A stretch of DNA of 45,884 nt, taken from assembly GCA_001767435.1 (NCBI GenBank), contig MEKT01000016.1:31870-77753 (forward strand), given 5' to 3'. Below the pieces are notes generated by a model that saw only the letters and a program-made list of their open reading frames with translations, did not search any database and was not told where the DNA came from. The position numbers were made by a program, and so were the translations under genes. Below, in pieces: positions 26,047 to 39,823 of this stretch (its first letter is position 1; the number at the start of each line of letters is the position of its first letter). Origin of the DNA: Acidobacteria bacterium RIFCSPLOWO2_02_FULL_65_29. Its GTDB lineage: Bacteria > Acidobacteriota > Vicinamibacteria > Vicinamibacterales > CAVVIG01.

Positions 26047-26123
26047 GGGCGCTTAGCTCAGTTGGTTAGAGCGCGTGCTTCACACGCACGAGGTCAGAGG
26101 TTCGAGTCCTCTAGCGCCCACCA
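26047..26123 (+). tRNA. tRNA-Val(CAC)
   Basis: Acceptor GGGCGCT/AGCGCCC, D-arm GCTC/GAGC, anticodon stem CGTGC/GCACG with loop TTCACAC (anticodon CAC), T-stem AGAGG/CCTCT with loop TTCGAGT, discriminator A and an encoded CCA at 26121-26123. It is 77 nt long including CCA. Confidence 0.97.
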
Positions 26124-38170: not shown

Positions 38171-38198
38171 TTGACAACGCGAGTGGCTCGCCTATATT
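38171..38198 (+). promoter_or_regulatory. Near-consensus sigma-70 promoter
   Basis: TTGACA at 38171-38176 and TATATT at 38193-38198 with a 16-base spacer. The expected start is about 38205. It is the best promoter in the window by eye. Confidence 0.75.
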
Positions 38199-38204
38199 GA
38201 CTAA

Positions 38205-38456
38205 CGCGCCGCGCTGCCGCGAGCCGCGCCGTGCCCCTCTGCTTTCAGAGATGTGGTGCGACCGCAGGTTCTTGAGCGCGCGAGCGCAGACCGCCCTGTC
38301 GCTCGGGCCGGGTCGCGGCTGGCCAGGCACACCGCCACCAGCGCCGCGTTTGTGCTCCCTCCAGGCATGTTCGGAGCGAGCCACCCCGCCGGACCGGCAG
38401 GGCGCTCTTGTGCGAGCGGCCCGTGCCAAGCTTCTTGCCGGGCAGCGACGGGCGTA
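38205..38456 (+). ncRNA. Candidate structured non-coding RNA, about 250 nt (or long structured leader)
   Basis: CGCTGCC (38212-38218) pairs with GGCAGCG (38441-38447); the helix extends outward with two one-base bulges (GCC with CGG, then GCG with CGU) to 38206 and 38455, so the predicted transcription start coincides with the 5' end of the closing stem. Inside are a hairpin CTCTG-CTTT-CAGAG (38237-38250), GCGACC (38258-38263) with GGTCGC (38311-38316), and GGCAC (38326-38330) with GTGCC (38423-38427). There is no open frame with protein character. A closed long hairpin with its own strong promoter recalls 6S RNA, but the length is above the usual 180-200 nt and no conserved motif was recognised. 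It may instead be the leader of the hydrolase mRNA. Confidence 0.45.
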
Positions 38457-38471
38457 GTAACGTGCCGGCTC

Positions 38472-39206
38472 ATGGAGCGGCGCGCATTCCTGACGCTGGG
38501 CGCGGCGAGCGCTGTTGGCTGGCTGCACGAGACGCTGAACGCCGAGGCCCGCGCGCAGAGCGAGCTCCCCTTCGGAGAAAGTCGCCTCGGCCTATCAGAC
38601 GATGGCCGCGACGGCTCGCTGTACGTGCCAAAGGGGTACCGAGCCGGCGTGCCGATGCCCCTCCTCATGATGCTGCACGGCCTTGGAGGGTCGGCGCAAG
38701 GCGTCCGCTACACCTTCCCGCTCGCCGACCAGTTCGGCGTCATCGTGATCGCTCCTGAATCCCGCGGTCTGACCTGGGGCCAATCCGCGCCAGGCTTCGA
38801 CGCCGACGTTCGGTATCTCGGCGCGGCTTACCGGCACGTCACCGGCTTGCTGGATGTGGATCGCGCGCACGTTGCGCTCGGCGGCCACTCCGATGGCGCG
38901 GGCTACGCGCTTGGGATGGGCCTCGCGTACGGCGACGTCTTTAATCACCTGATGGTGTTCTCGGCTGGTATGATGACGCCGTTCAGGAAGCAGGGAAAGC
39001 CGCGGATCTTCATCGCGCACGGCGTCGACGACAACCAGATGCCCATTGAGAGGACCAGCCGGAAGTTCGTTCCGCGGCTGAAAGCTGAGGGCTATGACGT
39101 GACGTATCGCGAGTACGACGGCGGCCACGGAGTGAAGGTGCCGGTCGTTCGCGAGGCGTTCGAGTGGCTTCTCGCGGGAGATGAGCGCCGCGGCAGGCAG
39201 GACTGA
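38472..39206 (+). CDS. Exported alpha/beta-hydrolase (esterase/PHB-depolymerase-like)
   Basis: 244 residues from ATG at 38472; the frame further upstream lies in the structured non-coding segment and lacks protein character. The N-terminus MERRAFLTLGAASAVGWLHE has a twin-Arg pattern suggesting Tat export. Core motifs are PLLMMLHGLGGSAQ (oxyanion hole), VALGGHSDGAGYALGMGLAY (nucleophile Ser in GHSDG), a late Asp in HGVDDNQMP and the His in YDGGHGVKVP. Substrate unknown. The stop TGA sits in the loop of a palindrome (39197-39214). Confidence 0.85.
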   Translation: MERRAFLTLGAASAVGWLHETLNAEARAQSELPFGESRLGLSDDGRDGSLYVPKGYRAGVPMPLLMMLHGLGGSAQGVRYTFPLADQFGVIVIAPESRGLTWGQSAPGFDADVRYLGAAYRHVTGLLDVDRAHVALGGHSDGAGYALGMGLAYGDVFNHLMVFSAGMMTPFRKQGKPRIFIAHGVDDNQMPIERTSRKFVPRLKAEGYDVTYREYDGGHGVKVPVVREAFEWLLAGDERRGRQD

Positions 39207-39283
39207 AGTCCTGCACTACACGGCGGGCGTAGAGCGATCTAGGCGTCTGCGCGGCAGAATGTCGTGCGGGTCTTCAGACCCGC
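39197..39283. repeat. Two 8-2-8 palindromes between convergent genes
   Basis: GCAGGACT GA AGTCCTGC at 39197-39214 holds the stop of the hydrolase gene in its loop (TGA 39204-39206). GCGGGTCT TC AGACCCGC at 39266-39283 abuts the TAG of the minus-strand gene (39284-39286). Both have the same 8-2-8 layout and may act as bidirectional terminators. The first, with its ACTACA tail, is the same as the palindromes inside the large gene at 9262. Confidence 0.7.
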
Positions 39284-39823
39284 CTAGCCCTTCTTCAGTT
39301 GCGCAAGGAGCGCGGCGAGCATCTGGCTGTAACGCTCGTCAGCAGCGGCGTGAATCTTCATGTACTCCGGCTCGGTGATCTGCTGCTTCCGCCATTCGTT
39401 GTCGAACATGGTGCGCTTGCCAGACGTCTCAACCGCGTCGAACCCCTGGTTGTCTTCTTTCTTGGCCCGCAAGCCGTCCATCCCGAGGTCTTCCACGAAT
39501 ACCTTCGTGCCAGGGCTCGCCGAGCTCTGCAGGTCGATGTAGACCTCGCGGTACTCTTTCTTGCCAATGCGGGCGTCGAGCAGCTGCGGCGCCGAGTATT
39601 TGGCCCCAATCGTCAGGAGCTGGAAGCCGGGGATGTAAAGGACGGCGATGAAGGTGTCGGCGCCCGCGGGATCCTTGGTGGCGATGGTGTCGAGCTTGGC
39701 GGCGGTGAGTGCGGCCGCCAACTCCTTGGCCAGGGCCGCCGACTTGGGCTCCTGCGCGTACGCGCCACCAGACCATCCGATCACGCACAGCGCGACCAGC
39801 GCTTCTCGAGCCAGTACCTTCAT
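39284..39823 (-). CDS. Secreted protein of unknown function
   Basis: A 179-residue exported protein; GGGGAGGG precedes the ATG by a few bases. The signal peptide is MKVLAREALVALCVIGWSGG, cleaved near AYAQ. The mature domain is mixed alpha/beta: ALAKELAAALTAAKLDTIAT, DTFIAVLYIPGFQLLTIGAK and REVYIDLQSSASPGTKVFVE, then a charged helical tail (DNEWRKQQITEPEYMKIHAA). Several acidobacterial genomes seem to carry similar proteins, but no family name is recalled. It is convergent with the hydrolase gene and stands alone. Confidence 0.8.
   Translation of the reverse strand: MKVLAREALVALCVIGWSGGAYAQEPKSAALAKELAAALTAAKLDTIATKDPAGADTFIAVLYIPGFQLLTIGAKYSAPQLLDARIGKKEYREVYIDLQSSASPGTKVFVEDLGMDGLRAKKEDNQGFDAVETSGKRTMFDNEWRKQQITEPEYMKIHAAADERYSQMLAALLAQLKKG

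Follow-up and report, generated by a model that had tools for sequence, protein, structure and literature searches.

The window analysed here, a stretch of 45,884 nucleotides from Acidobacteria bacterium RIFCSPLOWO2_02_FULL_65_29 (contig MEKT01000016.1), carries on its forward strand a strong sigma-70-type promoter followed by a stretch that, by comparison with its relatives, is very probably a genuine gene, about 210 bases long, for a small RNA with a promoter of its own and a fold kept by evolution. A Tat-exported hydrolase, for which only sub-threshold esterase and abhydrolase matches were obtained, starts at 38472 on the same strand, 57 nt after the proposed end of the RNA, and in the window lies between the RNA and an Mla-type operon. 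The features to which we refer below are these:

38171 to 38198, plus strand: sigma-70-type promoter, TTGACA-N16-TATATT, with 11 of 12 consensus bases
about 38205 to 38415, plus strand: proposed noncoding RNA gene, its start placed from the promoter and its end from the U-rich tail; homologues in 13 other genomes
38207 to 38286, plus strand: 5′ hairpin domain, self-closed, with outer pair 38207-38286; variable in sequence and length
38288 to 38408, plus strand: conserved core with a three-way junction
38292 to 38298, plus strand: 5′ strand of P1, the closing stem of the core, pairing with 38398-38404 in the covariation alignment
38398 to 38404, plus strand: 3′ strand of P1, pairing with 38292-38298 in the same alignment
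38315 to 38347, plus strand: hairpin A, the most conserved element (GCGGyUGGyCAGGC..GCCACCA..CCGC), its helices paired in 14 of 14 copies
38354 to 38381, plus strand: hairpin B, with the best covariation support (6 of 7 pairs with both-side changes somewhere)
38405 to 38415, plus strand: tail, U-rich in the family, at which termination would occur
39284 to 39823, minus strand: gene for a 179-aa protein with a signal-peptide-like start, a convergent neighbour that lies outside the RNA; 123 of 193 genomes of the class have it

The promoter had been called the best of the window in a preliminary description of this DNA, and a scan of the window agrees: it matches 11 of the 12 consensus bases, against 9 for each of four other sites. 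The start predicted there, at about 38205 on the first pair of a stem, also fits, as it adjoins 38207, with which the 5′ hairpin opens. An exact TTGACA, a spacer of 16-18 nt and TAnnnT precede the RNA in all 13 copies with upstream sequence, where chance would give about 1.65e-4 sites of the TTGACA/TAnnnT type in 190 nt of similar composition; the copy in genome G012, which has no upstream sequence, was omitted from the promoter, tail and 5′-domain counts. Judged from these 13 testable copies, the RNA has a conserved promoter of its own, as a stand-alone noncoding RNA gene should.

Relatives of the RNA occur in 14 genomes, that of the window included, which belong to four families of one order, presumably Vicinamibacterales, of Acidobacteriota group 6 and come from allied bacteria of soil and groundwater. 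When 60 relatives were searched at the DNA level, 17 genomes matched at E<=1e-3 (own genome included); nine relatives besides the own genome share a conserved segment, some 120-150 nt long and aligned inside 38271-38422, and seven genomes with only short matches of 28-50 nt (G001, G007, G015, G021, G045, G048 and G058), judged to be chance, were dropped before model building. With a first covariance model, built from 10 sequences, the RNA was recovered in 14 genomes (own genome included) out of 162 in the order, and three of these, G090, G058 and G028, belong to other families; the copy in G058 lies at a different place from its earlier short match. A second model returned the identical 14 among 193 genomes of the class and, among 396 sampled genomes of the phylum, three that were all known already. 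No copy outside the order was found in those 396 genomes, a weak search in which only 8 candidates were scored per genome.

With laxer filters the RNA was found in 11 of 27 genomes of the window's own family and in the known three of 40 chosen genomes of the order. Across these two sets true copies score at least 82 bits with the second model and the next best matches at most 25 bits, not counting the echoes that true copies give on the reverse strand (up to 29.5 bits), and TTGACA was absent within 200 nt upstream of all six borderline matches inspected. Presence is patchy, both in the family and in the class (14 of 193 genomes), as seen by model searches which, in the large sets, score few candidates per genome and can miss divergent copies. 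A pattern scan of a collection of named genomes picked out 44 stretches, 12 of which were confirmed by the model, all 12 in carriers already known, and the search for phage or plasmid copies gave no match. Divergent copies were sought beside the 179-aa gene in genomes without a model match: beyond nine loci with the RNA, 21 loci (L109-L129) were examined and no such promoter was found there on the expected strand, except for a weak, unlike site in L123; the copy in L125, that of G058, is inverted and had already been counted.

The core of the RNA consists of P1, then P2 and P3, then a three-way junction with hairpins A and B. In an alignment of the 14 copies made without reference to structure, 94.4% of the 515 cells in the core are paired and 16 of its 37 pairs have changed on both sides; none of 500 shuffles attains any of five measures of covariation and every slid control is far lower. 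Covariation in relatives, which the preliminary description had proposed as a check, thus bears out the pairing of the core, and the compensatory base changes in its helices are, on this comparative evidence, those of a structured RNA. The signal comes mostly from hairpin B, P2 and the ends of P1, whose last pair has gone from G-C to C-G in G028. The helices of hairpin A hardly vary, so that covariation is little informative on hairpin A itself; this hairpin forms the largest block of invariant positions. Over the whole core, 30 of the 37 invariant positions, most of them in hairpin A, stand in paired columns and seven are unpaired.

No such conservation is seen for the 13-pair closing stem, ending at 38455, which the earlier reading had drawn. 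Its arms can indeed pair in the window, where the region of 38207-38218 and that of 38440-38453 form a duplex of -25.4 kcal/mol, but this pairing is not conserved in relatives: the conserved RNA stops short of the 3′ arm, and in most relatives the position of the far arm is taken by the next gene or by unrelated sequence. Tested against the 60 nt after P1, the 5′ arm gives duplexes of -8.7 to -25.4 kcal/mol in 12 copies, stronger than that with the 5′ domain's own partner in five of the 12, window included. Downstream pairing is as good in some copies, as can be expected of GC-rich DNA, and the duplex-energy test does not by itself decide between the outer stem and the 5′-domain partner. We rejected the outer stem as a functional structure on two other grounds: that its far arm falls in genes of the relatives; and that the 5′ domain closes on itself in all 12 copies that possess one. 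These domains are 57-96 nt long and variable in sequence. Such closure arises also in 58-86 of 300 shuffles per copy, and related copies are not independent. G017, which is not among the 12, is without a 5′ domain; its core stretch begins 3 nt after the -10. In five copies (L161-L163, L167 and L169) the 5′ hairpin is capped by a loop GUGAAGnUrUCCG, which is lost or changed in others. Since the 5′ arm has its conserved partner in 38276-38286 and the outer stem is not conserved, the RNA gene probably ends near 38415 and not at 38456.

Termination just after P1 is suggested by the T-richness, across the family, of the 11 nt that follow it: T makes up 72 of 143 bases (50%) after GGGCG/P1 in 13 copies, against 18% within the RNA. 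In the window itself, the U-richness of the tail (CUCUUGUGCGA) is no more than moderate, and a scan for a canonical terminator found none.

The claim of a structured stretch of about 250 nt stands, therefore, as regards a structured noncoding RNA, and fails in its 3′ half, which had been drawn wrongly. The energy of the fold is of no help in this: that of 38200-38470 is ordinary (z of -0.51, with 63 of 200 shuffles as stable), single-sequence fold energy is useless as evidence here, and the earlier structural argument would for that reason not stand alone. The absence of a protein-like frame was correctly noted in the main point, in that there is no conserved reading frame. The three frames of the window copy hold 0, 0 and 1 stops, some frames being open in GC-rich DNA, and any frame that the copies might have in common is interrupted by indels of 1-2 bases, which fall within the most conserved block.

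The genes around the RNA bear on two further readings. The 179-aa protein, which matches no Pfam family above cut-off, is encoded next to the RNA in 11 of the 14 carriers, window counted, and convergently in 10 of them. Behind its gene follow a DUF948-like gene (just below the Pfam cut-off), YtxH and MlaD, and then ORFs which, from their sequence, we take to be mlaF, mlaE and uvrB. The rest of the operon stands directly after the RNA in G012, and contig ends are close by in G013 and G090. In G024, G028 and G058 the RNA is found between corresponding neighbours (L172 for G058; L163 and L173), and in G058 it is inverted between them. Three carriers, each from a different family, have a tRNA gene no more than a few hundred bases from the RNA (L023:1567-1640, L033:1392-1463 and L034:1219-1290); the window has no tRNA close to the RNA, the nearest being at 26047-26120. 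Between the hydrolase and the 179-aa gene, at 39190-39290, two short palindromes (around gcaggactgaagtcctgc and gcgggtcttcagacccgc) look like an intergenic repeat element.

The short distance to the hydrolase, on the same strand in the window, is what would favour the RNA being a 5′ leader that acts in cis, as riboswitch or attenuator, on the gene at 38472, and an unusual leader of this kind had been raised as an option in the preliminary description. It does not survive the comparison, since in relatives a different gene follows the RNA, on the other strand: 10 carriers, window included, have the convergent 179-aa gene as their next conserved gene, and it was on this context that we rejected the hydrolase leader. 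No conserved same-strand gene was found after the RNA in relatives, where the sense-strand ORFs downstream are a shadow of the minus-strand operon; a leader role is unlikely for this reason and, with the inversion in G058 also against it, we give a leader of the hydrolase hardly any credence.

Alternatively, the RNA might act on the 3′ end of the convergent Mla-type operon (mlaE-mlaF-mlaD-YtxH-DUF948-179 aa) and control it through antisense overlap or interference with transcription there. The RNA does lie at the 3′ end of the operon in 12 of the 14 carriers, the other two being near contig ends, yet vertical inheritance can explain so stable a position; moreover about 870 bp separate RNA and operon in the window, the inverted RNA of G058 does not fit, and most of the 123 genomes with the 179-aa gene are without the RNA. 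Control of the operon is, we think, improbable.

No family of Rfam 15 matches the RNA, in the window region or in 12 homologous loci, at curated or permissive thresholds; a permissive search of the window region produced two matches, both far below cut-off. The statement that no known RNA motif could be recognised was therefore right, and that of a promoter driving a structured RNA without known motif is upheld, in so far as it concerns conservation, promoters, covariation and the lack of an Rfam match. Among families known from this phylum, Acido-1 and Acido-Lenti-1 (RF01686 and RF01687) are likewise candidate structured RNAs from Acidobacteria, which a table of PMC2864571 marks as not cis-regulatory, but neither matches the window or the 12 homologous loci even at permissive E-values. 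At the level of listing entries and of passages of PMC2864571, no description of the RNA was found. The bacterial small SRP RNA (RF00169) resembles the new RNA in being a housekeeping structured RNA; it has no match here, and the genome has its own copy of SRP RNA elsewhere.

A layout like that of 6S RNA had also been pointed out. 6S RNA is a rod with a central bubble mimicking an open promoter; it binds sigma-70 RNA polymerase and templates pRNA. The new RNA shares with it (RF00013) a stand-alone gene, a strong promoter, structure and a length of about 200 nt, and the strong promoter, the paired ends and the lack of an RF00013 match in this assembly could be taken to mean that it is the 6S RNA of the lineage, or a divergent second 6S. 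However, it has no Rfam 6S score (RF00013 did not match the window region at gathering or E<=10, nor the 12 homologous loci at E<=0.5), and its core is a branched three-way junction and not a rod. RF00013 matches in 161 of the 193 class genomes, and a separate, canonical, high-scoring 6S is present in 10 of the 14 carriers (G010, G012, G013, G014, G016, G017, G023, G024, G026 and G058), on a different contig from the new RNA; it is on this coexistence that we rejected 6S identity, which we regard as very improbable.

Absence of ssrS elsewhere in the genome had been put forward as a sign that would favour 6S, and RF00013 was indeed not found in the window genome (G000), nor in G009, G028 and G090. 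An assembly gap is nevertheless likely for G000, because the rny-like gene that stands beside 6S in relatives is also unmatched there, although that search was made without a control and so shows little; in most of six carriers examined, 6S is flanked by ORFs that, read by eye, are presumably pheT (before) and rny (after). For the absence of both 6S and rny from the 97%-complete assembly of 239 contigs the simplest explanation is a gap, the other being joint loss.

Comparison of the copies establishes homology, a conserved promoter and a conserved paired core for what we take to be a stand-alone RNA gene, folding as a 5′ hairpin plus core; the reading that we favour, with some confidence, is that this RNA would act in trans as a protein-binding RNA. 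Its strong, housekeeping-type promoter would give constitutive and abundant transcription of an RNA of about 190-230 nt (shorter in G017), predicted to fold into the 5′ hairpin and the three-way-junction core that P1 closes; the probable 3′ end of the transcript is the U-rich tail directly behind P1. This structured RNA may then bind protein in trans, with hairpin A as the main recognition element. It is solely the pattern of conservation that points to such a role: as 30 of the 37 invariant core positions are paired, a folded recognition element is favoured over a free antisense seed, and hairpin A is more plausibly a site of protein binding or of a tertiary contact than a seed for antisense pairing. 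Against the reading as a whole stand the ordinary fold energy, the failure of the scan to find a canonical terminator, the patchy presence and the near-invariance of the hairpin A helices. If the RNA gene is real, we would put protein binding at somewhat better than even.

The alternative would be a regulatory sRNA that base-pairs with mRNAs through its unpaired loops, 5′ domain and tail. Such sRNAs typically have a stand-alone promoter, a U-rich tail and a size like those found here, but the regions that would have to pair are poorly suited: of the 37 invariant positions, just seven lie outside pairs; the 5′ domain varies greatly, and one copy lacks it; and the CU-rich stretch of hairpin B is itself paired and is not kept in G028 or G058. 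We consider base-pairing regulation possible, and rather doubtful.

The RNA is very probably, on the evidence of its sequences, a new and previously uncatalogued family of a known kind, the stand-alone structured RNAs of bacteria, with good comparative support and in a major, little-cultivated phylum of soil. The covariance model enables others to annotate it and, as the promoter predicts high expression, the RNA should show readily in metatranscriptomes. Its coexistence with 6S means that it adds to the known housekeeping RNAs and replaces none of them. We suggest, tentatively, that it could represent an abundant, housekeeping-type class of RNA confined to one order of Acidobacteriota, forming a dedicated ribonucleoprotein through hairpin A, and so resembling 6S and SRP RNA in manner, not in ancestry.
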